A stretch of 64,000 bases of DNA from Paralvinella palmiformis (Eukaryota; Annelida; Polychaeta; Terebellida; Alvinellidae): NCBI GenBank assembly GCA_025642065.1, contig JAODUP010000011.1:474501-538500 (forward strand). Reading direction: 5' to 3'. The stretch's first letter is position 1, and the number at the start of each line of letters is the position of its first letter. Positions 3,989 to 27,350 of the stretch are shown here, piece by piece. The notes beneath the pieces are model-generated. The model ran no database searches. It saw nothing but the letters and a program-made list of their open reading frames with translations, and was not told the DNA's origin. The position numbers and the translations under genes are program-made.

Positions 3989-4061
3989 ATGGAAAAGACC
4001 TCGATGATATGGGTCACCGGACTGGTGACTTTGACCTTCGTGGTTTTAGCCAATCAGAAAG
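3989..4061 (+). CDS. PTN/MK-like multi-module gene, exon 1 (signal peptide)
   Basis: This is the first coding exon of the seven-module secreted protein. From ATG at 3989 it reads MEKTSMIWVTGLVTLTFVVL, then ANQK. That is a short charged start, a hydrophobic core of about 14 residues and a small-residue site (V-L-A before N-Q) typical of signal peptidase cleavage. The exon stops after one base of a codon (phase 1) at AAAG/GTTTGT, which fits every module exon downstream. A TTTCAG at 3969-3974 just before the ATG could be the acceptor joining an untranslated first exon; no promoter was identified. The start was chosen because it is the only ATG giving a signal peptide in the required phase. The donor GTTTGT is weaker than the GTAAG-type donors downstream. 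Confidence 0.72.
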
Positions 4062-4431
4062 GTTTGTTAGCTTTAAGTGTGACATAGATACGTTGAAAGA
4101 CAAATAAACAGATTGATTGACTGATGTGAACAAGCAGTGACTCGAGAATATAAGACGTTTTGAATATGGACGGTTTGGTCATAACATACACCTCCGGGTG
4201 TTTTGATTATGAGATTTTATCAGAGTGGGTGTTTTGGTTATATCATATTTTTTAAGTTGATATTATGATTTAAAGTGATATTTACAAATGTAAATTAAGT
4301 GTAAATTTTAATAGAAGTATTTAGAAGTCAAATTTGATATCTGTTATCAGAGTTAATTATGCAAAATACATTTAATTTAGAAGCCATTAATATATTACCT
4401 TAATCCTGATGAAGCAATTCATTGTAATTTC

Positions 4432-4617
4432 AAGTGGTTATTGCAGTTAGAGTATGTCATTAAATAAGAAGTTCAAACTATGGAAATATAAAGACATTTG
4501 TTTAAAAAATAATAATTGAAGAGCAAGTGGTGATTGTGGTTAGAATATGTAACTAAATGAGAAACTCAAACTCTGGAAATACAAAGGGATTTGATTAAAA
4601 TCGTTGAAGAAACAATT
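4432..4617. repeat. Diverged tandem duplication, about 92-bp unit
   Basis: Two adjacent units share AAGTGGT.ATTG..GTTAGA, TATGT.A.TAAAT.AGAA, TCAAACT.TGGAAATA and ATTTG.TTAAAA in order. They lie in the first intron of the PTN/MK-like gene. About 80 percent alike by eye. Confidence 0.65.
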
Positions 4618-4879
4618 GGGGAGTGAAAGTTATTATACTATAATGCCACACGGTCTACTCCATGAATTACCTTAAATCTACTGCAATGCGTGTATAACCC
4701 AAAACATATAAGTTAATATCATATCTGATTCCATTGAGTTAATCTCTCAATATGGAAGTTATTAGTACGAAGAGAGGTTACCAGAAGATATGTTTAGATT
4801 GATTCATGTACACTCGGAAACATGTACTCAAATCTGTTTATCAGATTGTAATGCTAGGAATACCAAATGTTCATCACTC

Positions 4880-5690
4880 TTGAAGACTTCCAAGGCCTTC
4901 GCGAATTCTGAAGTTACCGAGGGTCACAGCCATCCAACTGATGTTGATACGTGTGTTGTTTAGACGTGTCGGTAAGATATGAAGCAGAAGCAGCGTGGCA
5001 CAAACGACAAACCCAAGTAGATACTGGCATTCATGACCGCTACTATCCCAGCTGAAGCAAAATCCCGCATTCCACTCCCTGACACTCTGTCATGTACTAG
5101 CTGTCCACCGGCCTAAAGATCCACAATCTCTCCAGGATCTGGACCTTACTGGTTACTGGACTATGACCAGTGGTGATACTCCGTCACGTTTCCTCCTCCA
5201 CGACAATGACTAAGAGGCTGATGATTGTGTTATCATCTTCGCCACCGACAACCAACTAGAACAGTTGACTCAGTGTGATGAGTGGTGTATGGATTGGGAC
5301 ATTTGGTGTTGCACCATGCCTGTTCAGTCAGTTGTATGTGATCCAGGCTAGAGCCAATGGTGTCTTCCTTCCATTGGTGTACGTACTACTATAGCGATAA
5401 CTGATAAGCTACGATGAGACGCTTTGTGTTATTGAGGAGTTTGATTGTGATCCAAGATCATCGACTTTGAGACGTCTGTTGAGTTGGCTCTCTATGCTGT
5501 ATTTGGTGAGGCAGTAAAAGTCCAGTACTGCTTCTATCACCTGACTCAATCTATCTGACGTCATATTCAGTCTCTGGTACTGTAACACCTGTATATAGAG
5601 GACAACGAGTTCAGTCTCTTTTGTGGACAAGTCAATAAAATTTCATTCTTCGCAGCGTGGGATTCATCCTGTCAAGAGGACGAAAATGGT
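4880..5690 (+). pseudogene. Decayed MULE-type DNA transposase
   Basis: Pieces of a Mutator-like (MULE) transposase can be read in order on the + strand across stops and frameshifts. They are H-S-H-P-T-D-V (the linker after a FLYWCH-type zinc finger), I-F-A-T-D-N-Q-L-E-Q-L (near 5230), C-D-E-W-C-M-D-W-D at the usual F-M-D-G-T-F catalytic site, then IDFETSVELALYAVFGEAV and VQYCFYHLTQSI (5455-5550), and D-N-E-F-S-L-F-C-G-Q. The catalytic region is degraded and no single frame is intact. It lies in intron 1 of the PTN/MK-like gene. Terminal inverted repeats were not identified. Confidence 0.72.
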
Positions 5691-5699
5691 ATGTGGCCA

Positions 5700-6280
5700 A
5701 CTTCAAACTCGCCAGAAAAATCCATTTCAGACATGATGATTGGTGTTAGCCATAACTTCCGTGGTCAAACCAACATCTGATGTGTATATTGTTAGCATGT
5801 GTTATGCAGTCGGTGTCATTCCACTTAGACGAATATCCTATGGATGAAAACGGATAATATTCCGAAGGAACGAGTTGAAATGGACGTTTTCGATATTTTC
5901 ATTCCGAGTATACAAAATATGGACTAGATCTATGATGTCTCCAATAACCTATGCAATTAAAGTAAACTAGTTTTGTGTTTAATTTGTTTATGCGATTTAG
6001 CCCAAACCATCACCCAGATTAAGACATCCAGGGGTGCATAGGTCGGCCATGACCAAAACCTCCATAGCCAAAAGGTCAGTGGCCAAAACGTGAGACATAC
6101 AGGCAGCGAGGCAAAGAGATAGATAGGGGACAAAAAGCAACCCATACCTCGGTGAATGGTCTCCAATATACAGATTATGTCGCTAACATAAAACAAATAT
6201 TTCACCGGATAAAATTAGCTTAATAATAAGGTCATATTACTCTAATATCGCCTATTGGTACCAATTTTAATCATGACGCA
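5700..6280. other. Intronic sequence, nothing recognised
   Basis: AT-rich sequence between the MULE remnant and module 1. No repeat or exon is evident apart from a few bases resembling the acceptor region of exon 3. Confidence 0.5.
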
Positions 6281-6290
6281 GATGTATCAG

Positions 6291-6437
6291 CTGATGATGA
6301 ATGCAAGTATGATCCGAAAAGTGTCACATACCAGGAATGTAACGAGAAAATAAAGAAGAGATGGCAGATGGAGAACCTAATGACCGGACAACCGGACAGC
6401 TGTATCCCGATCAAGATGACTTTAGTGCCATGCGAAG
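6291..6437 (+). CDS. PTN/MK-like gene, exon 2: cysteine module 1
   Basis: First of seven four-cysteine modules. It begins A-D-D-E-CKYD, and the cysteines follow C-x11-C-x20-C-x9-C (CKYDPKSVTYQEC, then DSC...VPC). This matches the C-terminal heparin-binding domain of the pleiotrophin/midkine family, which starts C-K-Y, has a central Leu region and ends K-P-C. The exon begins and ends in phase 1, and the donor is GAAG/GTAAGG. A second in-frame acceptor, GACGCAG ending at 6281, would add three residues (start 6282). The Trp usually found two residues before the second cysteine is absent here (Y-Q-E-C). The sequence is very close to module 2, and the intron after it is also related, so the two arose by a recent tandem duplication. 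Extracellular, probably glycosaminoglycan-binding (family knowledge). Confidence 0.8.
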
Positions 6438-7787
6438 GTAAGGATAGAAAAGATTTGCTTATGTTCATTGAGATTGCTGTATACAAATATAATTAATTAA
6501 ATGCTGATTAATCCAAAACGTTTGGCATATTTCATATTTTCATTTAATGTCACATCTTAACAAACACCTAAACCTTTAACCACGGCTAAATAGGAAAAGG
6601 GAACCATTGTCCTGGTTATAAATTTCTATTTTGTTTAAATATATAGAGTTTTGGCGAGTACATTTTTATAAAACCCGTGTACGTATAAGAGAAATTCGAC
6701 ATAATTTGTATTTAATAATATATGAAAATTAATTCCATGGCTAAACCAGTTTTAGTTATGACACTGGAAGCTCAATAAAATAAGCCAGTTTAAAGAAATT
6801 ACCATAACGAGGGATACATTGTTTCCATTGAATAACTTAAAAACATAGTAACAGTCATTAATAAGAACCCCCCTCCCCCAATGTGTCATATTATTACTAT
6901 TGTTAAGCATACCGTTGCACTATTGCCTCTGACTTTATCGTAATTGTCTGGAATCTTACTTACATCAGCCTATCATAATTAAGAGAAAGAGTAATCAGCA
7001 AATATTAATGAAGAAATCGTCACGTTCATCTTAAACCACACAATATGTATCAACCGCTTAGAGTAAGATTAAAAGACAATCTTAAACACAAGCTTTTAAT
7101 AAGAAAATTTAAATTATTAGTCTGTCTACAAATAATTTAGAACATTAGTACATGGTACTATTAGTCGAATTTTAAATTGACAAATGCAAATGCTATATGT
7201 AAAATGACTGTTTATATAGAAAAAAATCGTATATAATACAGGTTTCATAACATTTTCCGTGTAGTTTATTTCACGCCATAAAATACGAGACATGAAAGAA
7301 ATTATAAACAAGGCAATGATTTAAACAAAAAGTACTTTATGCATATAAGCAATTTGAATAAACATGTTTTGTCCCATTCTATTTAATCAATAAGGATTTA
7401 AACAAGTAATGTATTAGTGAATGCGTGGTTTAAATGGTGAAACATAGGATTGAAAATCAAAGTCTGTACCGTAAATGGCGACCTTTGTTTATGAACTTTA
7501 CAAATGAAATATATTAGCTCGCATTATATTTTCACGACATCATTGATGTTCCCTATTTTACAGAAATAAAAATATCGCAAAATTATGTGTAATAACAACA
7601 TAATGTGCATGGATGCCAATCTTCCTCGGCTCAGCCGATTTCCGAGATTTTCTGCTTATTCTGGATCATAAACTTGGATTGTTCGCAATACACTCCAAAT
7701 ATTTTCAGAATTTTTTTCTTATTATTGTCCATTACGATCCTTGAATGCGCTCAATGACAATGTAATCTTCCCTCTAATATCCCACAG

Positions 7788-7928
7788 ATAAATGCAAGTA
7801 TGACAAACAAAGTACAAAATATCGAGAATGTAACAACAAAACAGAGAAGAGATGGCAAATGGAGAACTTAATGCCCGGACAGCCGGATACGTGTGATCCG
7901 GTCAAAATGACCTTGGTGCCATGCGAAG
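7788..7928 (+). CDS. PTN/MK-like gene, exon 3: cysteine module 2
   Basis: Second module, read D-K-CKYDKQSTKYREC and ending DTC then C-P-V-type spacing to VPC, with C-x11-C-x20-C-x9-C. The acceptor is CCTCTAATATCCCACAG with a good pyrimidine tract, and the donor GAAG/GTAAGG is identical to that of exon 2. Phase is 1 at both ends. The central stretch KRWQMENLM is shared exactly with module 1, the strongest between-module identity in the gene. Like module 1 it lacks the Trp before the second cysteine. The 47-codon length makes it the shortest module. Family knowledge gives an extracellular beta-sheet domain with two disulfides that binds heparan or chondroitin sulfate; that function is inferred, not seen. 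Confidence 0.82.
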
Positions 7929-8090
7929 GTAAGGATAGAAAAGATTTGTTTATTCGTTTATATCACTATTTATAAAATATAATTAACTACGCGTTGATTA
8001 ATCCAGAACGTTTGGGTGTATTTCATATTTCCATCAATTCTGACGTCTAAACAAACCGCCTAAATCTTGAATGCCACTAACCTTCAACGG

Positions 8091-8370
<280 letters not shown>

Positions 8371-8384
8371 ATGTTGCAATATAT

Positions 8385-9746
8385 ATACATATATATTTGT
8401 GGCATTTTGAGCAAACAGTTGACGTCTTGTTGTCTTGTAGCTTCTGCGTAGTTGGCATCGTTTTCTAACAGAAGTTCCAGCTTGACTTGGTCTCTGGATT
8501 GTTCCAGCAACCATTCCAAGCTGATGTAATGCGGTCACTACGGCTGGGTGGAGAACATTGACAGTCTAAGTGCGCAAAGCAATCCAGTCATTGGTAGGCC
8601 ATATACCACCTGCTTGAGGCATTCATTTACAGCTTTGGCCCTTTCTCTCATTTGCTGTCTATCCAGGATTTAAATCCAGCAACTCCAACCATATTCAACA
8701 TGTTGTAAAACAATACTAGAGGCCATCGGTTTGGCACTATAGTGAAGCATGATGGTAGGCTTCTGACCTTCCCCCGCCGTGGTTGAATTGTGATACATGT
8801 TAGGTAATGTCAGAACAGCCTTAGCTATGGCTGGAACATATGATGTGATAGTCAGATTATCACCAAAGCCAAACAGAGAAGAATGGTCGTGTCTATTATT
8901 TGATGGCTGGTGGAATGTCAGTTTTAGTAGAGTTCTAACAATTATGAGATGTTGTTGGAGCAAATCTCCACCAGAGGAATGGATGTAAACAAGTTATGTA
9001 AACAAGAAATGTAGCATAATTTCAAACGTCCTGAAATATTTCCCTTATATAATGGGATGCGGCTAACTTGTCTGTTGTTTTCCTTCTAGCACTGGTATTT
9101 CTATTATCCAATCGTAGAAATCTCAGCGGACTTTGCAAGCCATTTAGAGCCACTGTAGCAGCAACAATGGGTCTTCTACTCTCAGGAGACAATAATTCGG
9201 ATATTATGTAGATGATCAAATTCGGCTCAGGAATGGAAAGGGGCTTCCAGTGTTTCATTTTATCGGGGTTTGTAGCATTTCATTCGGCATATATTTGATT
9301 TGCTTCCCTGTTGGTTTCTCTCATTATGATATCCAAAATATTTGTTGTTATGAAAAGCTCATAAGACGCCTCCATGCCATGGACGGTACCTGCTCTGGTA
9401 ACACCAGGTGGATTGGGAATAATATCTTGCATTTCTCTATCTATATGATGCAGGTGGATTGGCATACCATACCTGAAAATGCTATTATTTTCAGTTTCAA
9501 CAGGACAAGAGATTTTGAAGTACTAAATGCCAATCAAACATTCGCAAATCCATTGACAAAATTAATCTCATTTACCATTTAACTGGTGACTACCCTATAA
9601 TCTTACTGCCTATTTGTCCTACAACTCATTGGTTCTACAACCAAAAATAACTGTTAGGCTTAGACTGTAGGACAAATGGATTGTAAGATTATAGGCATGG
9701 AACATTAGCTGATGACCGTGCAACAACAATGTATACTTTAGATTTA

Positions 9747-9831
<85 letters not shown>

Positions 9832-10165
9832 CACTATTCACGAATGTCAACTACTCTTTCCAATTTTGTCCTGTCACTTCGTTATCATCAGGGGCTGGTT
9901 GAATTATACGATTCTCTGCACGACGTATGACCTTTGCCCCTAGCTCGACTTCTGACATGACCTTTCTGCTATGGCGTGGCCTTGATGATCATTGTTATTA
10001 TGAGATTGAATGTGAGGATGTTTAGAATCAGCAGATATGACATATGGCTGCTATCAACGTCAGCTACATGATCTTCATCTGAGCTTCCTCATCTGGTGCA
10101 TACGAATCGTCATCGCCTAGATCAGATAAAGAATCACTGTCATATATTAATATTTGTTTGACAAC
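8385..10165 (-). pseudogene. Decayed full-length piggyBac transposase (PGBD-like)
   Basis: Read on the - strand, the fragments occur in the correct order. An acidic N-terminus (S-D-L-G-D-D-D-S-Y-A-P-D-E-E) lies near 10,100. PPGVTRAGTVHGMEASYELF and ILDIIMRETNREANQIYAE follow (9280-9450). Then come RPIVAATVALNGLQSPLRFL, D-N-R-N-T-S-A-R-R-K-T-T-D-K-L-A and I-R-E-I-F (9022-9200), then R-W-P-L-V-L-F-Y-N-M-L-N near 8720, and finally the C-terminal cysteine motif C-S-K-C-H-K-Y-I-C near 8400. These match the DDE transposase domain and zinc-binding end of piggyBac. Frameshifts, stops and a (TA)n insertion at 9748-9828 show it is dead. It lies in the intron between modules 2 and 3. TTAA-flanked ends were not located. 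Confidence 0.78.
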
Positions 10166-10730
10166 ATCAACAACACAATACCGTCCTCAACGTCGGTTGG
10201 CGTTATGAACTTCAGTTGCGTTTAAAAAAAAGAATATCCCATTTCCAGTAAAGAGCAATCCCAGAACCTTTCCAATCAAATTTGTTTCCCGATGAAAAGG
10301 TTCAGTAAAGTGGGGTAACTTGTTTATTGTTATCTTTGAGAAATATTAACAACCTATGGAAATAAAACTGGGATAAAGTATGCATAGTTGTGAATTTAAA
10401 AATGTTCAGTTATTCTCCTAGCCCTGGTCATATAGATCCCACCTTTATCACCCGTAAACATATCCTATATACGTTGTTCTACATTCATTACATTTTACAG
10501 CGATGACAGATATCAGGGGTGTGAGGTTAAACAAAAGCCATGGGCTAATATATTTCTCTAAAAAATAATTACATTTCAAAAAGCTGTATTTATTATCATT
10601 TCAAGACCGACGTCATCCCGACAGAGATCGGTAAGTTTCAATAAACAAATTAAACTAAAAGAAACTGTTGGTTATGCAATATTAAAACAACGTCCTGATC
10701 TAGGTTTATGTCAACGATATGTACACGTTG

Positions 10731-10920
10731 ATGATGATGATGATTGATGTTTTACGGCCACTTTTGTGCACAAGGTAGGCTAAATGGGCCGAGGGACCTC
10801 CAACGGTAATGAGGCCAAGTCAAAGACGAAACAACCTTCAGATAAGCCCACGCCGAGATTTGAACACGGGTGGTAGTGATCTGTAGTCCAACACGCTACC
10901 GCTAGACCACGGAGGCGCCC
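10731..10920 (-). mobile_element. tRNA-derived SINE (family S1)
   Basis: The - strand starts GGGCGCCTCCGTGGTCTAGC (A-box-like TGGTCTAGCGG) and has GTGTTCAAATCTCGG (B-box-like), then a body with TTTCGTCTTTGACTTGGCCT and a tail ending in (GAT)n. A close copy is at 31545-31708, and partial copies of its body are at 21690-21740, 42965-43090, 48487-48580 and 51185-51335. Confidence 0.8.
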
Positions 10921-11900
10921 GATATGTATACGTTGAATTAACAGCGTTCAATTAGTGGGATTGCCCGAACTTGCTCACTTTACTCTATATTATTCCATGT
11001 TTGTTTATAGTACAATTTTCTAACCACCATTTTTATTTTGCCGCAAGCTTTGCTTCTGTCGACAAGAGGCCGATATATTATCGTAGAATATCATAAAAAA
11101 TAGTGCCCATTTCCATATTTCTGCCCGACTTTCTTCCTTTTTTAGCAATCTAACAACACTTAGCTATTCGGTTTATTTCTTCAGTATATCCTACGTGATT
11201 GCGGCTACCTCGCTGTATCTTGAATATGGTATTAGTCTTCCAGATAACTGGTATATAACATACAGTGACAAATGATTCCGTTTCGTTTCTACGCCATGCT
11301 GCTTACGTTGAACAATATGTCGTGAAATTATATTTAAATAATTTTATTACAGCAATTTGTCTAATAATAATAATAAGAACACTATAATATTAAAACAATA
11401 TTGTTCTTCTAACCAGCTGTAGCCAGTGGGTTACAATTTCAAAGAAGCCATCAGCTGAGATTTATACGAAGTTTACCAGTTATTTGTTTACATTAGGAAC
11501 ATATGACTAAGGGGTGACCGTATAGGGATAGACTCATCACACAAACAGATAGTATTGACTTCCTATCCTAATTTAAAGATTTCCATTGCTATATGTTATG
11601 TAAGAGTTACACAGTGTCTGAAGTAGAAACGTTTCCGGTCAGTGTGTGTTACATCCGGTCCAATTTATACGGTCTCAGATAGTGTTGACGACAAGGATGC
11701 ATTTGATTAGCAACCGAAATTTGGAATGAAAATATAAGTGTTTTTTAAATCATAAATTATTGTTGTATGGTGTTAACTAGTCTATATAAGTAGATTACTT
11801 TGTTTTGGGATAGTTACCAGTCCAAAAACTGGATTGTCAATAAATAAACATTATAGTTATGTGTAATCAGACTTAAAAACGGAGCTGATTAATCGATTTT
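10920..11900. other. Intronic sequence, no gene seen
   Basis: AT-rich intron of the PTN/MK-like gene; short chance ORFs only and no recognisable repeat. Confidence 0.5.
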
Positions 11901-11964
11901 ACAATTTTTGGGGTCAAGAACCATTTCTGTGGATTTGTTTACCGACAACAAAGCTTCATTTATA

Positions 11965-12125
11965 TCTAACGAGCGCTCTTACAGCGTATTGGTTAGAGCG
12001 TTCCGCTACAAACTTCCAGGCAGGTTGTCAGTTCGAGTCTTCGTTATACCTGGATTTGTGGGATGTTTCGCCTCGGCCGTATGTTCCAAGTATGACCAGT
12101 GCCAAGACTAAACTAACCAACTCAT
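11965..12125 (+). mobile_element. tRNA-derived SINE, related family, old copy
   Basis: GCGCTCTTACAGCGTATTGG with TTAGAGCG, then TTGTCAGTTCGAGTC (B-box-like), a middle with GGGATGTTTCGCCTCGG, and an end AACTAACCAACTCATCTCGA. The same 3' end recurs at 59140-59180. Diverged. Confidence 0.55.
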
Positions 12126-13245: not shown

Positions 13246-13407
13246 GGAAGGCCCCCAACTGCGCGTATGCCAGGAGTGTCGGCAAGTGGTCGCAGTGTAA
13301 TAATAAAACTCACTTTATGAAAAAATCTTATATGGTACTAAAACACGGCCCACAAAAACAATGTCCTCCAAAGAAATTCAAGAAAAAACGGTGTGAAAAA
13401 AAGAAAG
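13246..13407 (+). CDS. PTN/MK-like gene, exon 4: cysteine module 3
   Basis: Third module, reading K-A-P-N-CAYARSVGKWSQC, then a basic Leu-containing middle, then KQC and KRC, with spacing C-x11-C-x21-C-x9-C. It keeps the G-K-W-S-x-C signature that is the clearest link to the PTN/MK C-domain. The second half is extremely basic (PPKKFKKKR between cysteines 3 and 4, then E-K-K-K), the strongest candidate polyanion-binding patch in the protein. The acceptor is CCATTTCTTCACAG and the donor AAAG/GTAAAT, phase 1 at both ends. It lies 5.3 kb after module 2; the intron between holds a decayed piggyBac element and a SINE. Confidence 0.83.
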
Positions 13408-14017: not shown

Positions 14018-14167
14018 ACAGCCCCAAACAGTGTCACTATGATCCCGATTCTCGCATATACTGGAACTGTAACCCGAAGACAAAAATGAAGTGGAAGTTC
14101 GTGATCCTGAAACCTAAACAGCCGAAATTCTGTCATTTCGTACAAGCCACGTTGAAGCCATGCTTTG
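14018..14167 (+). CDS. PTN/MK-like gene, exon 5: cysteine module 4
   Basis: Fourth module: D-S-P-K-Q-CHYDPDSRIYWNC, then C-N-P-K-T and KFC...KPC, with spacing C-x11-C-x20-C-x9-C. A Trp directly before the residue preceding cysteine 2 (Y-W-N-C) resembles the W-S-x-C of the other modules shifted by one. The end L-K-P-C is the classic family ending. Phase 1 at both ends; donor TTTG/GTGAGT. The acceptor (TTATGGCCAG) has a poor pyrimidine tract, so the exact 5' edge is less sure than the frame. The intron to the next exon is only about 200 bp, by far the shortest in the gene. Confidence 0.78.
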
Positions 14168-14368: not shown

Positions 14369-14530
14369 GTAGTTATCCTTCCAGATGTCATTATATTAAG
14401 AAACTAGGTAAATGGTCGAAATGTAGTTTCTATTCCCACCGGAAGTCGAGAATCTGGGGGGTGTTGAAGCCTGGCCAGTCACCACTATGTCAAGGGGTGA
14501 AATACCAAAGAAAACCGTGTAAAGGTGGAG
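14369..14530 (+). CDS. PTN/MK-like gene, exon 6: cysteine module 5
   Basis: Fifth module: S-Y-P-S-R-CHYIKKLGKWSKC, then a basic middle with V-L-K-P-G-Q, then PLC...RKPC, spacing C-x11-C-x21-C-x9-C. It has the full G-K-W-S-x-C motif and ends K-P-C-K-G-G-G. The acceptor is TTTCCATTTCTCGCCAG and the donor GGAG/GTAAGT, phase 1 at both ends. Within 350 bp of module 4, so the pair may have been duplicated as a unit. The following intron carries the 3-kb CR1/L2-type LINE and several microsatellites before module 6 at 19.4 kb. Confidence 0.83.
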
Positions 14531-14781: not shown

Positions 14782-17700
14782 TAATAATAATAATAATAAT
14801 GTATATTTAATAAAGCGCCCTTACTAGCAGGAGCCATTCAAATGCGCTGTACAAATAATATTTAATATAATAGTACCCCAAATAATGTCTGTAAAAACCC
14901 TGTAATGATTTAAAAGACCTTAAATAGGTGTGTTTTTAGAAGAGACTTAAAATTTCCAAGAGACGACGCATTTATAATATTTGCCGGCAACTTATTCCAC
15001 AAAGTGGGGGCTGCAACACTAAACGCACAATCACCATATGACTTGAGCCGAGACACTGGCACCTGCAATAGTATCTGACTGGATGACCTGAGTTTTCGGG
15101 ATTACTTTCTAATGGAAACCAGTTCACACAGGTATTCTGGCGCCATATCATTAATAGATTTATAAGTTATTAACAGAATCTTAAGATGGATACGCTGTCT
15201 AACAGGTAGCCAATGTAGTTTTTGAAGAATTGGGGTGATATGATAATATTTTCTAATATTGAGTTACAATAGTCTATATGAGATGTAACAAAGGCATGAA
15301 CTACAGTTACAAGTGATTCTTGTGTCAAGAATGCTTTTAAACAGTGGATGTTCTTAAGATTGTAGTAGGCAGCTCGGCATACTGATTTTTTACTGACCCA
15401 TTAGGGGTAATCGAAGATTCACCATCTGTAATGCTGGTGTCTTTATGGATTTAACACAATGTGGTGATGCCAAATATAAAATATTTGTTTTATTATCATT
15501 TAGTTTTAGAAGATTTTGAGTCATCCATAGCCGAATATCAGCAATACAATGTTCAAATTCTTCAAGGAAGAGGAGAAATTTAACTCATTGTCAGGATCCA
15601 GTGATATATTCAGCTGTGTGTCATACAGCATACAAGTGATATTTAACCCCATATCGCTGCAAAGTGATCCCAAGAGGACGGGTATACATTGTGAAAACCA
15701 GAGGTCCAAGAACTGAACCCTGTGGTACACCAGATAACAAAAACTGAATGTCAGATAAAATACCATGAACAGACACTCTATGGGAGCGTTGTTCCAGATA
15801 GGATCTAAACCATTCAAGTACTCTACCTGACAGACCAAACATGTCTTTTAACCTAGAGAAAAGTACATTATGGTCAACTGTATCAAACCAGCAGACAGGT
15901 CCAGAAGAACAAGTATTACTGGCTTACCTTGATCAATTGACATCATAATATCATTTTTCACTCGAACCAAGGCTGTTTCAGTGCTGTGACCACTTTTATA
16001 GGCAGACTGTAGTGATTCATTAAGGTTATTATTGATTAAATATTTGTTTAGATGGAAAGCAACTGCCTTTTCTATAACTTTAGATAAAAATGTAAGATTT
16101 GAAACAGGTCTGTAATTGTTTAGAATATTACAGTCCATAGTGTGGTTTTTTATTAATGGTTTTTCAAGGGCAGCTTTCATGGATCTTGGGAAAACACCCA
16201 GAGATAATGATTTATTAACTATATTTGTAATTGGGTTTATCAGAACATCCAGACAATCTTTCACAAGCCATGTAGGCATAGGGTCAACTGCACAGAAAGC
16301 ATTAGATGACTTTTTCAGCAACTGTCTGATATCAGTCTCTGTAAAAGGCTCAAATGTATCCATCATGGATATGCAGGATTCTTCTACCAATGGTGTACCC
16401 TGTGATAAGGTGCTGGACTGGAACCCACTATGTATATTTAATATTTTTTGACAGAAGAAGTTATTAAAACAATGGGCCATATCTTTATCTGAGTTGATAT
16501 TATTTGGGAGGACAGTTTGACTTTTATGTAATACTTTATTCACAACACTGAAAACAGTCCTTTGATTTCCCTTGGATGCTTTGATCTTTTTATTATAATA
16601 TTCAGATTTAGCAGAGGCAAGGGCCTTTTTAACAAGTATTTTACTGACCTTGAACATTTCAAAATGAACACACAAACTGGTCCTGATCCACAGCCGCTCA
16701 CAATACCTTCTGTGTCTCTTTGCAGCCTGTATGTTTTTATTATACCATGGAAGCATTGGTCTGCTTGGCATTTCCTTTGTCCTTAAAGGTGCATGTTCAT
16801 CTACAATGTCTCTCAATATATTATCATAGATATCCACCAGATGATCCACGTCATCCGGTGGATCCAATACCAGAGAAGAGACTCGCAGATCAGTAAGAAA
16901 AGCCTCCTTGTCAATTGACTTATATCTTCTATATGAAATAACTTTAGCTGAAACAGATTGTTTCTATAAAGATACATTAATGTCAACAAGGAAATGATCA
17001 GACAGCATGGAAGACACAGACACACCTTTAATCAAATTGTCATCATCACGGCAGATGACAAGATCTAAGATGTGACCATGTCTGTGTTTTCTTTCTTGGA
17101 CATGCTGCCTGAGATTGGCAGATCTAAGAATGTCAGCCAGTTGTTTGGTATCTGCATTCCTCTAGCAATCCCAATATATATTGAAATCACATAAGATCAA
17201 CAGATGACCACTGTTGATAGCAAGAGAGTCAACAAATCCCGAAAATTCCTTGAAGAAATCTGCTGCTTTCAGGCCATTTTTCTTAGTGGGGTGTAATCGT
17301 AGATTATAGCTACACGAACACTTATCCCCCCAGATATAAATACACTTGGTAATTTTCAAAAGACTTAGCCTGAAAACGCAATGGGTTTCACACTTCAAAT
17401 AATTACTGAGAAGAATGCCGACTCTTTTTTGTGAATCCGAGATGCATGGTGGAATGAATATCCAGCTGGAGTCACATCACCAACAATTTTCTGGTCTGAA
17501 ACATTACCAGTCAGTCAGTGGTGTGTAATGACAAGAGCATCAAGATCCATATCCTTAACAACATCAGATATTTCATCAGATTTATTACAGATCGACTGAC
17601 AGTTAATAAGACCAATACTTACATTTTGTACAGCTGTGCCATTATATGGTGTTATTGGCACAGTGATCAAATTACTGGCATCAGACCCAATCTGCTTTAG

Positions 17701-18937: not shown

Positions 18938-18938
<1 letters not shown>

Positions 18939-19051: not shown

Positions 19052-19395
<344 letters not shown>

Positions 19396-19432
19396 ACACA
19401 CACACACATTAATTAATTTATTATATTTTCAG

Positions 19433-19591
19433 TCCCTGGGCACTTACCAAAGTGTTTTTACGAGGTAAAGAGAAGGAAATGGTCACTCTGTGATCCCGTG
19501 CTTAGGATGCGGCTGATGAAGATGACGTTGAAACCTCACATGCCGGCTCGGTGTAGCCGGATTAAATTTGCATACAGAAGGTGTAAAATCA
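19433..19591 (+). CDS. PTN/MK-like gene, exon 7: cysteine module 6
   Basis: Sixth module: P-G-H-L-P-K-CFYEVKRRKWSLC, then a middle with M-T-L-K-P-H, then ARC...RRC and K-I, spacing C-x11-C-x20-C-x9-C. K-W-S-L-C retains the W-S-x-C signature. The acceptor ATTATATTTTCAG is strong and the donor ATCA/GTAAGT is consensus; phase 1 at both ends. It sits immediately after a (CA)n/(TA)n microsatellite that is the tail of a dispersed repeat, with the splice acceptor only about 25 bp from the repeat. Highly basic between cysteines 1 and 2 (E-V-K-R-R-K). Confidence 0.82.
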
Positions 19592-20727
19592 GTAAGTAAA
19601 GCTGATGAAATGACGAGGAGGGCATGTAAAGGGAGTGGGAGTTGTGGAGAACATAAACTATTAGTAAACATTGATCGATGTAATACATTTGAAAGACTTA
19701 TTAAAATAATTAAATTTCTTTGTTATCTAAACAACCTGTTTAGCTGTGAATCTTAGAACATAGACAAGTTACGCTTAATGTGGTATATATAGAGTATGTT
19801 GTATCGCAGCTAATGTATAATTTTTCCTATATTTTCTAGGGTCGGTGCTGTCGTATTTATAATTAGCCGTCAAACCATAGAAATAGATAGTTCCGGGATG
19901 AGGAATATTTTTGTTTTAATAAGTGTCTAGATCCCAAAAACATTTCGATATTCATGAACACTTATTCATGACGATGATCTTTTCCAAATATGATGTAATA
20001 GTTGTACATTTTAATTAATAAGATTCATTGAACCGAACGTAAAAACCTCTCTAGACTGTCAAATATAAAATATAGATCAATCAGAGGACCATATGTCATC
20101 CGAAATGATCCGTAGACAGTTAATGATCCGGAGACAGTTAATGAAGTTATCCGAGACCAAATCCTTGTCTTGCCTGTGACGTAGTGAAAGTGTAATAAGT
20201 GGATAATGTTTGTTTATATAAATCCATTCTGAATGTATGTAGCTTAGTTAAATTTATAGAGTTCTGTAATATTATTTTATTGGAAGTCGGTCCTGGTCAT
20301 CTAGTAGACGAAATTGTAACAAGCCAATTATATTCCGTGAATCGAGGATTTATTTCCATAAAAATACAAATAATACAAACCAGAAAGGGAACTCATATCT
20401 CTTGAACATTTTTATGAAAATGATTAGTGTATTTTGTGTCTGAAACATAAACAATCCAACAGGAAAAAACAACACCGCCCGTCCAGTAGTTGTGTGAAAT
20501 CTATGAATATTCACTGTCACGTGATCACTGCTACAGCACAAATCGAGCACCCCCTTTTATTAAGTAGTTGTATGCTAATGAGCTAGTCGATACACTGAAA
20601 AACATATGTGTATAAGCCGATCGATGGGGATGGTGTTGCTGAATTGTAAATTTTTAGCTTATATAATTGCAAACATGAATAATAGAATTTATTTATTATC
20701 ATTGTGAGACTGTAAATTAATTACAAA

Positions 20728-21653
20728 TACCGTACTCACGCGAATAAGGGCCCCGGCGGCTATTGTTTTCGATGGCTGTTTTCCCCGGCGGCTATTGTTT
20801 TCGATGGCTGTTTTTCCCCGGCGGCTATTCAAGCATGCCTTATTTAAGCAAAGGCTCTTATTGTCTGATATAAACGATTATCGTACTGAAAATATTGTTC
20901 ATCCATCCAAAAATGGATAATAATCCCCCAATCAATATCTTAATCACTCTGTGATTGGGCTAATCTCGTCACAGTGACAGTGTGTGACAGGCCCATCATC
21001 CAGTCAAGCCGACAACACCACACCATGCACACACCGTCAATAAGAAGTAGTATTTGTCTGAAGCTAATTACACCCAGACATCATCTAATGTTATGTAACT
21101 AATGGCTTCGTTTGATCCTTTAATCCGCTTATAATTGACATGTTGATCCCCTGACATGCATGCTTGTTTAGGTGTGCGTTTCTTCCAGACAAAAGACTGA
21201 GTTAAAATTATCTTGGCTTCCCGTACTTACAGTTATCATGTGACCCTCAATAATGGCGTAGATTACAGAGAAAAAACAAAGCCGATGAATCAATTAGAAA
21301 CACAATTTTACTTGTAACTGATGAGCAACTGACAATTTATACGATGGAATTAGTTTTGTGCATGATTGTTTTCGCCGAGAATTTTCCAAAATAACAGTAT
21401 AAATTAACTGACATGAACATCAATGGCAAGTATGCGGCTGACGTGTCAATAGAATGTGGGCGATGATAAATAAATCTATGCTAGAGTATTCGTACATGTA
21501 TATCTTCGTTTGTTTTCTTCGAGAGGGGGCGCTGCATCAAACATGGGCGTTTATTTATTTCAAATCATATTTACCCCCGGCCCCTGTTCAAGCATGCCCC
21601 TGTTCGAGCATGCCCCTGTTCGAGCAGAGGCCCTTATTCGCGTGAGTACGGTA
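20728..21653. mobile_element. Non-autonomous DNA transposon with 25-bp perfect terminal inverted repeats
   Basis: The left end starts TACCGTACTCACGCGAATAA and continues GGGCC; the right end is its exact reverse complement. The terminal TA on each side is the likely target-site duplication. Inside the left end, CCCCGGCGGCTATTGTTTTC with GATGGCTG is repeated about 2.5 times; inside the right end, a short unit CCCCTGTTCGAGCATG is repeated three times. Both are subterminal repeats, commonly transposase-binding sites in such elements. No transposase ORF is present. Superfamily not assigned. Confidence 0.85.
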
Positions 21654-22008
21654 ATATTAATTAACCTTATCTGATGATGATGGTGGTTACGATGATTGGT
21701 GTTTTACGGCCACTTTTATGCACATGGAAGGCTAAATGGGCCGAATTAGCCTTATATGGTTAATGGGACAGAATACTGATTTCGATTCGTGGTTGGATCA
21801 AATAAAGTGAGCCACTTATTTGCCTTGTATTCCGAAATCCTATCCAAGAAGGCACGTCTTTCTAAACCCATCACTGAGCTTCAGAAATACACCGCTCGGT
21901 GTCGCAGTGGTAGCGGGATCGGTGCATTATTTTATAATCATGTTATGACATGTTGCTGTTAATCAAAATGGTGTCCGATTCTTTGACAAAATGTTCGTTC
22001 TTTTTTAG

Positions 22009-22170
22009 AAAAAAAGAAAATGCAAAACTGCGTGTATAACGGTAGAAATTCGTACTGGTCATACTGTGGTGAAAGATCACATCAGAAGACGAAACAATTA
22101 CAACAGGCTCTAGCCAGCAGGGGAAGAGACTGTCCGAAAACTATCACAATAATAAAGAAGTGTAAAATAA
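22009..22170 (+). CDS. PTN/MK-like gene, exon 8: cysteine module 7
   Basis: Seventh and last module: a Lys run, M-Q-N-CVYNGRNSYWSYC, then a middle K-T-K-Q-L-Q-Q-A-L and RDC...KKC, spacing C-x11-C-x21-C-x9-C. Of the seven it most resembles the vertebrate C-domain: Y-W-S-Y-C, then K-x-L-x-x-A-L, then D-C-P-K-T-I-T-I-I-K-K-C. The acceptor TTCTTTTTTAG is strong and the donor ATAA/GTAAGT is consensus; phase 1 at both ends, leaving an A that becomes Lys or Asn with either candidate terminal exon. The following intron starts directly with the 28-bp minisatellite at 22.2 kb. Confidence 0.83.
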
Positions 22171-22225
22171 GTAAGTATAGAGTAACCTCCAGGTAAGTAT
22201 AGATCGACCTTCACGAAACTAAACA

Positions 22226-23250
22226 CAATGTTATAGGCTAGTATTATACTATAGGTAGGCTTATACTGTAGGTAGGCTTATACCAGTCTTATACTGTAGG
22301 TAGGCTTATACCAGTCTTATACTGTAGGTAGGCTTATGCCAGTGTTATACTGTAGGTAGGCTTATACCAGTCTGATACTGTAGGTAGACTTACACCAGTC
22401 TTATACTGTAGGTAGGCTTATACCAATCTTATACTGTAGGTAGGCTTATACCAGTCTTATACTGTAGGTAGGCTTATACCAGTCTTATACTGTAGATAGG
22501 CGTATACCAGTCTTATACTGTAGGAAGGCTTATACCAGTCTTATACTGTAGGTAGGCTTAGACTAGTCTTATACTGTAGGTAGGCTTATACTAGTCTTAT
22601 ACTGTAGGTAGGCTTAGACTAGTTTTATACTGTAGGTAGGTTTAGACCAATCTTATACTGTAGGTAGGCTTATACCAATCTTATACTGTAGGTGCACATA
22701 GACCAAGCTTGTACTTTTGGTAGCTGTGTCCAGCCGTATAATGTAGATAAATATATATCAGCTTTGTAATGTAAGTAGATATGACCAGTCTTGTACAGCA
22801 GGTTCATATTGACTAGCCTTGTACTGGAGGTAGGTGTACACTGGCCTTTTACTCTAGATGGGCACGGACCAGTCTTGTACTGTAGCTACAGATACATGTA
22901 GATCAGCCTTATATTGTAGATAGGTATAGACCAACCTCGTACTGTAGGTAGGTGCAGACCGGCGTTTTACTATAGGATGGTGTAGACCCGCTTTGTACTG
23001 CAGGTAAGTGTAAACCAGTCTTGTATTGTAGGTAAGTATAGATAAGCCTTGTACTGTGTGTAGGTGTAGAGGCTTTGTACTGTAAGTAGGTATTGACCAG
23101 TCTTGCACTGTACGTATGGATTGACCAGGCTTGTACTATAGGTAGGTATTGACCAGTCTTGTACTATAGGTAGGTATTGACCAGTCTTGTACCATAGGTA
23201 GGTATTTACCAGTCTTATACTGTAGGTAGGTATTGGCCAGTCTTGTACTA
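22226..23250. repeat. Minisatellite, about 28-bp unit (left part)
   Basis: About 35 imperfect copies of a unit like AGGTAGGCTTATACCAGTCT followed by TATACTGT. Units drift in sequence from one end to the other, from CTTATACC to TATTGACC variants. It begins within 60 bases of the donor of module 7. The array resumes at 24727 after an inserted element. Confidence 0.93.
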
Positions 23251-23473
23251 TTGAGGTTTTGCACCTGACGTCACAGACACGTGTCTGTTTGTTTATGCCG
23301 CCATGTTGGAGGTCAAGCGGTGGTTTATAGTCCGGCATAACGCAGCGAACAATATCAATCTTAGACATGCTCCCGATATCTTGAATACTGAGCTTTATTC
23401 GTCTTAAAAGTAAAGTAAAACAGTATCATCTGTTGGGTTAGAAACCATAGAATTGTCAGATTTGATCATTAGC

Positions 23474-23773
23474 ATGGATTTACCACCAGATGCCTTAGCG
23501 AGGTATAAATATAAGATAATCCACTTTAGTCAAGATCCCTATACTATGCCGCCAGAGATCTATATCAGCTATGATAATGCCAGTATATATCTAGGGGTCA
23601 CGTATCCTGGTGTATAGAATTACTTGATTAGCACACCATCCCCTTATACTGAAGATCAACTGAAAGCGTATAAAGGTCTGGAGGCTTATATTTATTTTAA
23701 AGGTGGATGGGTCAGATCATTGATAATTGCTCACGCCCGATCTACATCAAACAGTGATTTTGTGGTGAAATGA
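23474..23773 (+). pseudogene. Coding remnant inside the TIR element
   Basis: From ATG at 23474: M-D-L-P-P-D-A-L-A-R-Y-K-Y-K, then P-P-E-I-Y-I-S-Y-D, Y-P-G-V, an in-frame TAG, then NYLISTPSPYTEDQLKAYKG with L-E-A-Y-I-Y-F-K-G-G-W-V and TGA. The N-Y-L-(x)-T-P-S-P-Y-T-x-x-x-L-K-A-Y-K-(x)-L-E-A-Y signature resembles the N-terminal part of invertebrate proteins I associate with SWIM/YqaJ-type domains; that is from memory and tentative. The rest of any such gene is missing, so the element is an internally deleted, non-autonomous derivative. Confidence 0.5.
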
Positions 23774-24187
23774 CACATGTATATAAATATTTATAACAAA
23801 ATGGTGTTAGTTTTAAGAGATCAATATACCCAGGTTAACTATGTTTTAACAGGTTATCATTGATAGAGTCATTGCTGTGGCTAGAGATATTGATTATTTT
23901 ATCTCCAATAAATGTAGTTAATCAGGTGGTATAATTGATTCTGAGAGATTTACCAAAGCACAAACGACACGAAGCATTTTATTTAATATTGTTAACTGAA
24001 AAGTTGGGTCATTTTGGAGTAAAGTTATATGTATTATACTTTGTAATTCTGTGTACTTTTGTCTAACAACACCAATGACCTTAACCTCAATCGCATAAGG
24101 GTCATCATATATTGTTGAAATGTAGAGAGTAAATATGTTGTTTTTATGTTAGGTAATACAAATATGGTATCCGGACATAATCCCCTT

Positions 24188-24396
24188 GCGGACATAACCC
24201 CCTGAATATAGGAATTGGGGTTAGGATTAATTGACAGTAATTAACACACATATAAAATGGTTGTTAGAATATGGCCACTGCAATTGAAAATTTGTGTTTA
24301 GCCTTATATAGTTATATTTTGAAAAACTATATATTAAATTCACATATAAACCATCTTTTTCAAAACAACCACTGACATTCAGGGGGTTATGTCCGC
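24188..24396. repeat. Nested inverted repeat pair (hairpin or MITE)
   Basis: GCGGACATAACCCCCTGAAT at 24188-24207 is the exact reverse complement of 24377-24396, with about 170 bases between. It could be a small MITE inserted in the larger element, or an internal palindrome. Confidence 0.8.
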
Positions 24397-24726
24397 AGGA
24401 AGTTTTTTCCGAGAATCAGTTGTGACCTAAGTGGCTGGCACTATAGTGTGTACTAGGGGTCCATAAGTGTCGGCTTTGGCTCGTTTGGACCTGTTTACTG
24501 CTGCTATCCATTTGTCCCTTTCTGCACGGCTGTTATAGCTTACAGCAACACATGTATGACGCATGATGTCGTTAATACAGATGTATTTTGTATTTGTTGT
24601 ACACCAGACACGAACGTGCCCTGGCTCTCATTGTACCAAGCCAGTGTATCCAGGGATAGCTTGCTCCTCAACATGGAGGCAACAACAAATATCACTTGAT
24701 TTTATGACGTCAGTGCAAAACCTCAA

Positions 24727-24950
24727 TAGGTAGGTATTGGCCATTCTTGTGCTGTGGGTAGGTATTGGCCAGTCCTGCAGTGTACATAGGTATTGACCAG
24801 TCTTGTACTGTACGTAGGTATTGACCAGTCTTGTATTGTAGGTAGGTATTTACCAGTCTTGTACTGTAGGTAGGTATTTACCAGTCTTGTACTGTAGGTA
24901 GGTATTGGCCAGTCTTGTACTGTAGGTATGTACTAGTGGTAGCCTAGACT
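24727..24950. repeat. Minisatellite, about 28-bp unit (right part)
   Basis: Continuation of the array after the inserted element, with units like GTAGGTAGGTATTGACCAGT followed by CTTGTACT. The units match those immediately left of the insertion, confirming one array was split. Confidence 0.92.
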
Positions 24951-25174
24951 ACACTTGTACTATAGTTAGTTATAGGATAAAATAATACTGTATGTAGCCA
25001 TCGACTATCCTTGTATTGTAGACAGCCAAAGACCAACGGATACTATATAAAGCTATCTTAATATATATTAGTATGATTAAGGTAATAATTGTTTCTATAT
25101 AATTGAACTTAATGTGTACGGTCATAGGAACATACACAAATACACGTTGGGGCACACGTACTCCCGTGCGCGCC

Positions 25175-25290
25175 CGCGTGCACACACACACACACACACA
25201 CACAAATAGTTATACACAGACAGATAGACACACACAGTTAAACACACACATACAAACATACACACACGCGTGCGCACACACACAGAGAGA
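25175..25290. repeat. Degenerate (CA)n tract
   Basis: Interrupted CACACA runs with GCGC and CAGACA variants, upstream of the proximal terminal exon. Confidence 0.85.
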
Positions 25291-25454
25291 AAGAGCAACA
25301 TAAAATACTATTTCTATTTTCAATTCCCGGGCATAGCCATACGTGCGATTTACGGGTTGGAGTACGAGCATTACGCGACCCGAATTAAATACACGCATCA
25401 GATTAGATATGTTCCAAAAACAACTCGATGACGTAATTTCCTGTCTGTCTTCAG

Positions 25455-25522
25455 AAATCCGACTCCGCGCGCGTACGACGTATAAACCATATACATACCC
25501 TAAGAACTATTGGGAGCATTGA
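25455..25522 (+). CDS. PTN/MK-like gene, candidate terminal exon (proximal)
   Basis: Good acceptor (CCTGTCTGTCTTCAG) followed, in the required phase, by a basic tail: after K it reads IRLRARTTYKPYTYPKNYWE, then H and TGA at 25520. Vertebrate PTN and MK also end in a basic, unstructured tail after the last domain, so a short Arg/Lys-rich end fits. With this exon the complete coding sequence is 1224 bases, 407 residues. A GTAAGTA donor lies at 25532, just past the stop, so the exon may splice to a 3' untranslated exon, possibly the one at 27301. An alternative is that this exon is skipped and 27301-27350 supplies the end. Confidence 0.5.
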
Positions 25523-25564
25523 TATCGTCATGTAAGTATCCCCCATTCCATTATGTTCCCCTCC

Positions 25565-25995
25565 CCTAGGCGCCCCATGACCTAACTGGTAGAGCGGTTG
25601 GCAACGGACCTATAGCAACTGGGTTCAAACCCCGGCCGACCTATGTCAGAAGGGTATTTCATCTTTCAATTCGCCTCATTATCTTTGGGTGTCGCTCCGC
25701 CCAGTTAGCCTACCTTGTGCATAAAACTAGCAGCGTTTACATTTTGTCCTATGTGGCTCCCCGCTTGATATAGCTAGTGTCAATCTAGCCTCATCGACCA
25801 TCTTCCTGATACTTCACATCAAAGTACATGCCTTCTATTAGTGTAGTGGGTTCAGAATTGCGTTGTAAATGCCCACGTCATGCGGACGAATCCGACTCAT
25901 ATCTGAATTTGCGGGAGGTTTCTCTAAGGAGGCTGAACAAACTACTAATTCATTCACTCACTCATTTACTCACTCGTTTACTCACTAAAAAATAT
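25565..25995 (+). mobile_element. tRNA-derived SINE with (TCAC)n tail
   Basis: The head GCGCCCCATGACCTAACTGG with TAGAGCGG (A-box-like) and GGGTTCAAACCCC (B-box-like), the body TTTCATCTTTCAATTCGCCT and GTTAGCCTACCTTGTGCATA, then a second segment ending GAACAAACTACTAATTCATT and CACTCACTC repeats. The head keeps good tRNA-type promoter boxes, but no complete cloverleaf is expected, so it is not called a tRNA gene. Confidence 0.7.
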
Positions 25996-26544
25996 ATTCT
26001 TGGATTGTTGTATCGGGTTCTGGTAGCTTCTATTGTTCCTGACTTACTAATTTTAATCGTAAACAATATTTTCCATTGTTAACAGTTTGTTTACAATCTT
26101 TTTTGTGCTAAAGTCATTTTGTCCAGAAAAGTGATTTTTGGGGGTGGGGGGTGATGGTACGGTGCTTTGCAGATCTTCCCCATTTACAACCAGATGCTTT
26201 ATCATTCAGCAACCACTAACCAGTTATGTTATTTCGTTGTCGCTCCCCTCCATGTCCGGCCCCTGGCCATTGTGTGTCCTTGACACAAGCGCAATTTCCA
26301 TCCGGCGATCAAATAACAAACAAATAAACAGAATGTTATCGATTTATAGTCACACTTTTAGTATACGGTAAGCTAAACAAATGAAAGATGAAACATCCTC
26401 CATACATTGCTGCGTCGGGATTCGAATCCGGGTGTCGGAGATCTGTGGCCAGCCATGGTGAGACAATTACGGGCATCATCTAAGTGTTATTGTGTTATAT
26501 AACGTAAAATTATATTATATTATAGTACACTAATTTACCTGTCG

Positions 26545-26780
26545 TTATATTATATTACATTATGTTATATGTTATGTTATATGTTATATGTTATGTTATA
26601 TGTTATGTTATATGTTATGTTATATGTTATGTTATATGTTATGTTATATTTTTACATTACATTATGTTAACATACGGTACGCTATATTACATTTTATTAC
26701 ATTTTGTTATATTTTATGTTATTTTATGTTATTTTATGTTATGTTATGTTATCATTATTATATATAATATAATATAATAT
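26545..26780. repeat. (TTATG)n / TTATATG minisatellite
   Basis: Tandem GTTATATGTTAT units, then TTTTATGTTA units and TA-rich sequence. The Leu-Cys-Tyr-Val repeat ORF over it is simple sequence. Confidence 0.92.
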
Positions 26781-27300
26781 TATTATATATAATATAATAT
26801 ATTATTAGATGTACTATTAGATCTACTACCATCATCTCAACTACCACTACTCACAAACACTACTGTTATTACTATTATTATTACTATGATAGCCATCGGA
26901 AATTTTGACTCGTATATACACGACATGAAAAATAATATCTGACTCCCGAACAGAGAAGAAATTACTTTATTAAAGTTAATCTTATCACTGATCAATTATT
27001 GGGTCGATAGTTAAATATTGTATACCGCGGCGAGTCAAAAACATTTAGAGGGTTAATGGCAAACGAGAGAAAGAACCCCTTAACCCTTTATCACAATATG
27101 TGATCCTTTGGAGAGTGTGACTGGATCTGACTGTAACCCAACAAATACTTTTAATGATTACATTTTATTGGTGACCAATGAACTCTGAACTTGACAGGGG
27201 TACACACTTATTTATAATTCCATGTTTCATTATGATTTAGTTGTTTGGGTTTTTAAATTTTGTTTTGAATAATAGTTATTCTGATTTATTTTCTCATTAG

Positions 27301-27350
27301 ATTTGCGAGGAGGAAGGCAGAATTTATATCAGGACAGACGACAAAAATAA
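27301..27350 (+). CDS. PTN/MK-like gene, candidate terminal exon (distal, alternative)
   Basis: The acceptor TTATTTTCTCATTAG is strong. In phase 1 it gives NLRGGRQNLYQDRRQK and TAA at 27348. The stop lies inside an AATAAA hexamer (27346-27351), which could be a polyadenylation signal, although cleavage would then fall very close to the stop. Joined directly to exon 8 this gives a 401-residue protein with a different basic tail. If the exon at 25455 is used and spliced at 25532, this exon would be untranslated. The choice between the two cannot be made from the genomic sequence alone. Confidence 0.35.

Follow-up and report, generated by a model that had tools for sequence, protein, structure and literature searches.

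The window, a stretch of 64,000 nucleotides of contig JAODUP010000011.1 (positions 474,501 to 538,500) of the hydrothermal-vent annelid Paralvinella palmiformis, was found to contain on its forward (+) strand a gene whose predicted product of about 45 kDa carries seven C-type modules (M1 to M7) of the pleiotrophin/midkine (PTN/MK) family and no other recognised domain. Exon 1 (3989..4061) contained the start codon and a likely signal peptide (MEKTSMIWVTGLVTLTFVVLA-NQK), its hydrophobic start being judged by eye and by a simple hydrophobicity scan, followed by a phase-1 donor. The seven module exons were scored against the Pfam profile PTN_MK_C (PF01091) and, for the E-values given here, against a profile of seven Pfam-found modules from other contigs, without the modules of the window. 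Exon 2 (6282..6437) contained M1 (E=9.3e-8), which was without a Pfam match when taken alone, and exon 3 (7788..7928) contained M2, a tandem copy with 72% identity to M1 (E=2.7e-9; Pfam 15.7 bits). These were followed by M3 in exon 4 (13246..13407; E=1.1e-8; 23.4 bits), M4 in exon 5 (14018..14167; E=7e-10; 16.5 bits), M5 in exon 6 (14369..14530; E=8.9e-9; 25.9 bits), M6 in exon 7 (19433..19591; E=5e-11; 23.4 bits) and M7, the most divergent module, in exon 8 (22009..22170; E=0.0082; 21.3 bits). A putative terminal exon (27301..27350), unsupported except that its phase 1 fits, would add 16 residues and the stop.

When the gene was re-derived, GT/AG borders and phase 1 were found at every join between 3989 and 27350 and no internal stop was present, in agreement with an earlier note on this DNA, which had described a signal-peptide-like exon followed by seven module exons with phase-1 joins and no frame conflict. 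The length of 407 residues given in that note was not reproduced, the joined exons giving 404. The terminal exon was found to be the weakest part of the model, with two competing 3′ ends: the frame of exon 8 runs unspliced to a stop, for a protein of 396 aa, and splicing from a donor at 22193, which scores higher, would yield 427 aa in a different phase. One intron of the gene contained a retroelement-like frame. A tRNA scan and an Rfam scan of the whole window gave no matches.

The spacing C-x11-C-x20/21-C-x9-C was confirmed in all seven modules, each of which contained four cysteines with a terminal C-x9-C, and two disulphides per module are predicted from the cysteines, with the C1-C3 and C2-C4 pairing of midkine expected. 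The joined protein matched PTN_MK_C with E=2.3e-18 (66.7 bits over six stretches, cut-off 25.3), which upholds the family assignment by one of the two checks that had been set beforehand as refuting tests, and none of five shuffles of the protein with the cysteines held fixed matched this family. M5 was the only module above the cut-off when taken singly, the remaining six falling below it. Specificity was assessed on the 1,559 open frames of 25 codons or more that the window contains, all of which were ranked with a profile built from 28 modules of two other contigs. The seven modules of the window took the first places, with E-values between 6.5e-12 and 1.5e-5, and the frame after them had 0.83. 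Because those 28 modules had been collected with a profile seeded from the window, the stricter profile of seven exons found by Pfam only was also run, and the same seven modules ranked first, six with E≤9.3e-8 and M7 with 0.0082 (next frame 0.29). Addition of the human midkine and pleiotrophin C-domains to this profile brought all seven to E≤2.6e-5, the value reached by M7 (next frame 1.4). A profile of 35 modules, made from the seven of the window and the 28 of the same genome, was compared with the PDB, and its best five matches were midkine or pleiotrophin chains, each on the C-domain. The membership of the modules in the PTN/MK C-type family is firm.

A search with the single 404-aa sequence against a set of 5.8 billion proteins gave none of 576 candidates at E≤1, and phmmer of the PDB with the same protein gave just two lectin matches (E=1.5); the relatives surfaced through profiles and not through single-sequence searches. 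NCBIfam gave no match. A thrombospondin type 1 (TSP1) reading was rejected, as M7 reached 14.2 bits where the cut-off is 41 and the other six modules were without a listed TSP1 match; the PTN/MK domains have been assigned to the superfamily of this repeat in the available part of a review (PMC3267162).

The position of midkine W69 was occupied by tryptophan in M3, M5, M6 and M7 and by tyrosine in M1, M2 and M4, and contained tryptophan in 30 of the 35 modules of the genome set. The two modules that were modelled, M1 (pLDDT 87) and M5 (pLDDT 84), were each predicted with three strands, and each of the seven may form a small three-stranded sheet held by disulphides. In Foldseek, midkine-a, midkine-b and the pleiotrophin C-domain were ranks 1 to 3 of 53 for M5, and midkine-b and midkine-a were ranks 1 and 2 of 201 for M1, with the pleiotrophin C-domain at rank 5; the E-values were weak in both cases. 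Chains of the thrombospondin repeat were found low in the fold lists.

Midkine and pleiotrophin have mostly been studied as two-domain cytokines. The vertebrate proteins (PTN_MK_N followed by PTN_MK_C) share with the present modules the four cysteines, the terminal C-x9-C, a tyrosine two residues past the first cysteine and the three-stranded predicted fold, and in most but not all modules the tryptophan and at least two of the basic positions of cluster 1. They differ in containing a single C-domain after an N-domain, whereas the present protein contains seven C-domains and no recognisable N-domain, and their first cysteine loop is x9, two residues shorter than the x11 of the window modules. 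PTN_MK_N was not matched in the protein, in line with the earlier description of a gene using the C-type module only. An exon-by-exon search of the whole genome for the N-domain (PF05196) also found none above the cut-off of 20.4 bits, the best of the two candidates scored reaching 17.9 bits over 21 of 57 positions. Tandem PTN_MK_C proteins were found elsewhere, all of them Miple-like: a spider protein with three modules (P0002), bee proteins with two each (P0004 and P0005), and P0003 and P0006 with two each; the repetition of MK/PTN motifs in Drosophila Miple is noted in the review (PMC3267162, in part). These short proteins are likewise basic with a hydrophobic start, and the N-domain is absent from them by spacing (P0002 and P0004 by Pfam scan). 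They contain only two or three modules with an x9 or x10 first loop, preceded by an acidic stretch, whereas the window gene contains seven modules and lacks the acidic stretch. Among the papers listed for midkine, pleiotrophin or miple together with annelids, no annelid midkine study was present, two of them merely citing annelid work, and the main texts of the Alvinella genome paper and of the P. hessleri paper contained neither 'midkine' nor 'pleiotrophin'.

The net charges of the modules were −2 (M1), +2 (M2), +16 (M3), +8 (M4), +13 (M5), +13 (M6) and +11 (M7), so that the strongly basic character claimed earlier holds for M3 to M7 and fails for M1 and M2. Residues K79, R81 and K102 form heparin cluster 1 of midkine and are common to pleiotrophin, according to the review excerpt (PMC3267162), in which the strong ligands also include the chondroitin sulphate E unit. 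All three basic positions were kept in M4, M5 and M7, two in M3 and M6, and one in M1 and M2. Positions 79, 81 and 102 were basic in 27, 26 and 28 of the 35 modules against 27% overall, and their basic content ranked 2, 4 and 5 of 40 columns, which was equalled by 0.1% of random triples. It is these conserved positions, and they alone, that suggest glycosaminoglycan binding by the protein. Cluster 2 of midkine differed, position 87 being basic in five of the 35 worm modules and position 89 falling on an alignment gap.

An origin by exon duplication, as proposed earlier, was borne out by M1 and M2, which share a block of 287 bases with 77.7% identity running beyond the exon into the intron. The comparison of M1 with M2 (dN 0.16, dS 1.15, Fisher p=1.7e-5) indicates that this pair is under strong purifying selection, and in the four C2569 pairs tested the excess of silent changes was not significant. 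Duplication of symmetric phase-1 exons would have produced the seven-module gene.

Outside the window, and so outside the view of the earlier note, at least 28 further intact modules were found on two other contigs of P. palmiformis, 14 of them in series on one contig (counted per contig, in one gene or several); these counts are lower bounds, taken from contig stretches of which some partly read N. The paralogous arrays also contained three frameshifted modules. LSH36_347g04006 (P0001) and LSH36_975g00002 (P0007), which lie on other contigs than the window gene, contain mostly the same C-x11-C-x20-C-x9-C module in serial phase-1 exons, and their NCBI annotation includes joins from module to module; both NCBI models begin within a module and seem partial. 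P0001 was found to contain an additional short module with a Lys/Arg tail, and P0007 is far more basic than the window protein (pI 11.8, net +135). The sequences thus indicate that the gene is one of several multi-module members of the family in this species. A tree was built from 47 modules, comprising 35 of this genome, one short C-terminal module, nine from other animals (P0002, P0003, P0004 and P0006, with P0005 excluded) and two human ones. It grouped M1 with M2 and M4, and the two human modules joined eight of the nine other-animal modules; nine of its 44 inner branches were starred, so that few forks were resolved, and the bootstrap was not settled.

The best reading of the gene, judged moderately probable, is that of a secreted seven-module protein which would bind sulphated glycosaminoglycans multivalently and cross-link or coat matrix or mucus. 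M3 to M7 carry net charges of +8 to +16. The protein most likely binds sulphated glycosaminoglycans at multiple points simultaneously and would therefore cross-link or coat a sulphated matrix or mucus, whereas M1 and M2, neutral and with few cluster-1 residues, may form a head with a different partner. This matrix or mucus role is preferred over that of a classical cytokine. A signalling growth factor in the sense of midkine, pleiotrophin and Miple, which would activate cell-surface receptors during development or repair by way of proteoglycan co-receptors and gain avidity from its extra modules, is unlikely, even though the domain family is common to these proteins. The C-domain of midkine alone retains considerable neurite-promoting activity and its C-half binds heparin, and PTP-zeta binding requires cluster 1 (PMC3267162, in part), which is retained in M4, M5 and M7; Miple1 and Miple2 are secreted and heparin-binding according to the available text of PMC4224452. 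The same text reports, however, that flies lacking both miple genes are viable, dimerisation of midkine requires the N-half (PMC3267162, same excerpt), of which the worm genome contains no recognisable counterpart, and numerous modules and paralogues, recently copied, are unlike a conserved ligand.

That the protein is instead a secreted cationic antimicrobial or epibiont-managing factor binding bacterial surfaces is quite improbable, since M1 and M2 are not basic and are under purifying selection. It would accord with the charge of P0007, with the cationic, heparin-binding and antibacterial pleiotrophin of chicken and human (PMC9363672, in part) and with the absence of a significant silent-change excess in the four C2569 pairs, as is possible for a diversifying defence gene. 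Similarly low probability is given to a gene whose exons are real homologues but which is decaying or has never been transcribed in full, so that the nine-exon protein would not exist. The ambiguous 3′ end, the intronic retroelement-like frame and the frameshifted modules of the paralogous arrays point that way, and the window gene was not found among the proteins matched in the protein-set searches; against it stand the seven window modules, all intact in frame, cysteines and splice borders, the strong purifying selection on M1 and M2 and the annotated module-to-module joins of P0001 and P0007.

For the preferred matrix or mucus reading, the relative Alvinella pompejana is reported to have secretions with abundant sulphated glycosaminoglycans and an over-representation of carbohydrate sulfotransferases, with 34 genes of the CHST15 type among them (PMC12403961, in part). 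A bolder and rather unlikely extension is that the alvinellid C-module was repurposed from part of a cytokine into a repeat polymer, secreted polycations of many modules locking over-sulphated, CS-E-like chondroitin chains into a mucus or tube lining that resists heat, and having co-expanded with the CHST15-type sulfotransferases; the tube composition and the family table of A. pompejana in the same partial source (PMC12403961) count against part of it. A lineage that retained the C-module alone, with seven copies in one gene and 14 in series on another contig, would show this module to be usable as a stand-alone building block, and the vent animal would provide natural multivalent glycosaminoglycan binders. 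The joint expansion of sulphated-sugar enzymes and their protein partners in alvinellids also becomes testable.

The stretch was placed at C222:474501-538500 of an animal genome whose 2,597 contigs total 594 Mb, and the gene re-derived from its sequence was found to contain a start exon with a hydrophobic leader (window 3989-4061), seven module exons (M1 to M7, exons 2-8) and a possible end exon (window 27301-27350), the putative signal-peptide exon and the seven phase-1 module exons of the earlier note being recovered. The lengths of all the module exons were divisible by three and every join was in phase 1; as the exons are symmetric in this way, their gain or loss leaves the frame intact. 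The joined protein contained 404 residues in place of the 407 predicted earlier, with a mature pI of 9.9, 91 K+R against 27 D+E residues and 28 cysteines, and three options were found for the 3′ end (404, 396 or 427 residues). The gene is real and intact-looking.

The only family matched in the Pfam scan of the joined protein was the midkine/pleiotrophin (PTN) C-domain, PTN_MK_C (E=2.3e-18; 66.7 bits, cut-off 25.3), and the family named for the earlier prediction thus stood when checked against its profile. When all the non-cysteine residues were shuffled within each module, the match was lost in five of five shuffles, one of which gave a chance match to a different family (E=6.1). The modules taken singly were weak matches, with 25.9 bits in M5, 23.4 in both M3 and M6, 21.3 in M7, 16.5 in M4 and 15.7 in M2 against the same cut-off of 25.3, and M1 scanned alone against PTN_MK_C was without match. 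A profile of 28 modules from C1856 and C2569, two other contigs with paralogous module arrays, recovered all seven window modules, and no other frame among the 1,559 window frames was below E=0.83. Since the 28 modules had been collected with a window-seeded profile, a stricter test was made from seven exons found elsewhere by Pfam alone; the window seven ranked top, six of them at E<=9.3e-8 and M7 at 0.0082, followed by the next frame at 0.29. On the addition of human midkine and pleiotrophin to this profile, all seven scored E<=2.6e-5, against 1.4 for the next frame. In the leave-one-out search among the window modules six were recovered at E<=1e-5, whereas M7 came back no better than 0.29, which makes it the most divergent module.

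M1 and M2 were found to share a 287-base block of 77.7% identity, which spans the exon and continues into the following intron; it is direct evidence for exon duplication, by which the gene had been proposed to be built. The two modules contained amino-acid-changing differences at 16.5 of 112 sites against silent differences at 13.5 of 23 sites (dN 0.16, dS 1.15; Fisher p=1.7e-5 on rounded counts), and this silent excess indicates that both copies were kept under selection.

In the genome search with a threshold of E<=1e-3, the PTN_MK_C model picked out seven exons on C1856 and C2569, and no window exon was among its matches. With the window-module profile, at least 12 intact modules were found on C1856 and at least 16 on C2569, on one strand throughout (weakest E=0.0065), these counts being lower bounds from the contig stretches searched, which were partly N. 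On C222, no further modules were found in the readable part of the flanks searched (30 kb upstream and 20 kb downstream of the window). The best acceptor was in phase 1 in 34 of 36 module exons, a set including the window's seven and one frameshifted exon. Of the 35 exons with a donor, 33 had their best one in phase 1; M7 was one of the two donor exceptions, and several C1856 acceptors were low-scoring. On C2569, 14 of the modules follow one another between 2.6 and 21 kb, the last with a stop codon within its exon. Eight of 11 paralogue pairs were tested, three near-identical pairs being left out, and the silent excess was significant in four C1856 pairs but not in four C2569 pairs, the recent C2569 pairs thus giving no significant purifying signal. 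In this vent worm the gene family has expanded over several loci, and the window gene is one of its members.

Tandem copies bearing module exons, each roughly 0.5-2 kb long and with 71-91% identity, were observed at C2569:9013-19062. Three frameshifted modules (C1856:469865-470001, C1856:476591-476726 and C2569:16262-16397) represent either decay or assembly errors. An additional gene is probable on C1856, since a good signal-peptide-like exon (MKLSVLLLLAFVSLTLPNLTLAER) with a phase-1 donor was found at C1856:490115-490187, directly preceding the module series of 490.6-509.9 kb.

Among the annotated P. palmiformis proteins, LSH36_347g04006 was found in a profile search to match C1856, and LSH36_975g00002 in a second profile search to match C2569, both with stretches of 100% identity. 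These NCBI models look partial, as both begin inside a module; the module joins of LSH36_975g00002 coincide with the phase-1 joins derived here. LSH36_347g04006 was found to contain a shorter C-terminal module, C-x8-C-x17-C-x9-C, with a Lys/Arg tail, which is present on C1856 in two copies about 9 kb apart (473870-474046 and 483049-483213), and two adjacent tandem genes may have been merged in this model. The window gene was absent from the results of one single-sequence and two profile protein searches and hence apparently lacks a protein annotation of similar length. Beyond P. palmiformis, PTN_MK_C was found in five proteins of 151-216 residues among 1,497 candidates of a profile search, with three modules in a spider and two each in two bees and two others (sources 'jgi' and 'lgn'). 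Among the 1,322 candidates of the long-profile search (about 300 to 970 residues), the P. palmiformis protein was the only one found; this absence of relatives is weak evidence because the search first requires words shared with the query. The window gene is a further form of the known C-module-only, many-module PTN/MK proteins.

In PMC3267162, cluster 1 of midkine (K79, R81, K102), on two strands, is described as a heparin site common with PTN, and cluster 2 (K86, K87, R89) as absent from PTN. Strong ligands named there include the chondroitin sulphate E unit and the trisulphated heparan unit, and the N-half is described as required for dimerisation. Across the 35 modules of this genome, a basic residue was found at position 79 in 27, at 81 in 26 and at 102 in 28; in cluster 2, position 86 was basic in 28 and position 87 in five, with 89 on an alignment gap. 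The most basic column was that of midkine I98 (31 of 35), which would lengthen the basic strip next to K102. All three cluster 1 positions were basic in M4, M5 and M7, two in M3 and M6 and one in M1 and M2. From this distribution M3-M7 would form a chain of five predicted sulphated-sugar sites preceded by M1-M2 as a putative neutral head, and the serial modules would supply valency without the N-half.

The chondroitin sulphate E unit is made by CHST15. In Alvinella pompejana, of the same family, the secretions are reported to be rich in glycosaminoglycans that are sulphated, and over-representation against siboglinids is reported both for carbohydrate sulfotransferases (34 of CHST15 type, with 45 and 39 members in two other families) and for iduronate-2-sulfatases, numbering 35 (PMC12403961). 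By analogy with this other genus, a binder of sulphated matrix would be a sensible reading of the window gene. Counting against that reading, the composition of Alvinella tubes (25% Ser, 20.6% Gly, 11.8% Ala; PMC12403961) makes Lys-rich modules a poor fit as bulk tube protein, and no midkine/pleiotrophin family is named in the table of over-represented families of that paper.

Elsewhere in the window, an open frame of 199 aa with scattered cysteines and a Lys/Arg-rich end, without Pfam match, was found at 29262-29858 on the - strand. A short degenerate repeat of about 25-30 bases ('tactgtaggtaggctta...') was seen by eye to form an array in the intron after M7 (window 22200-23250 and 24720-24960). 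The M5-M6 intron was found to contain a LINE-like element with a 371-aa open frame on the - strand (window 15848-16963), followed by further frames to 17880, and the 371-aa frame matched a reverse transcriptase in part (RVT_1, 29.2 bits, slightly below the cut-off of 29.6).
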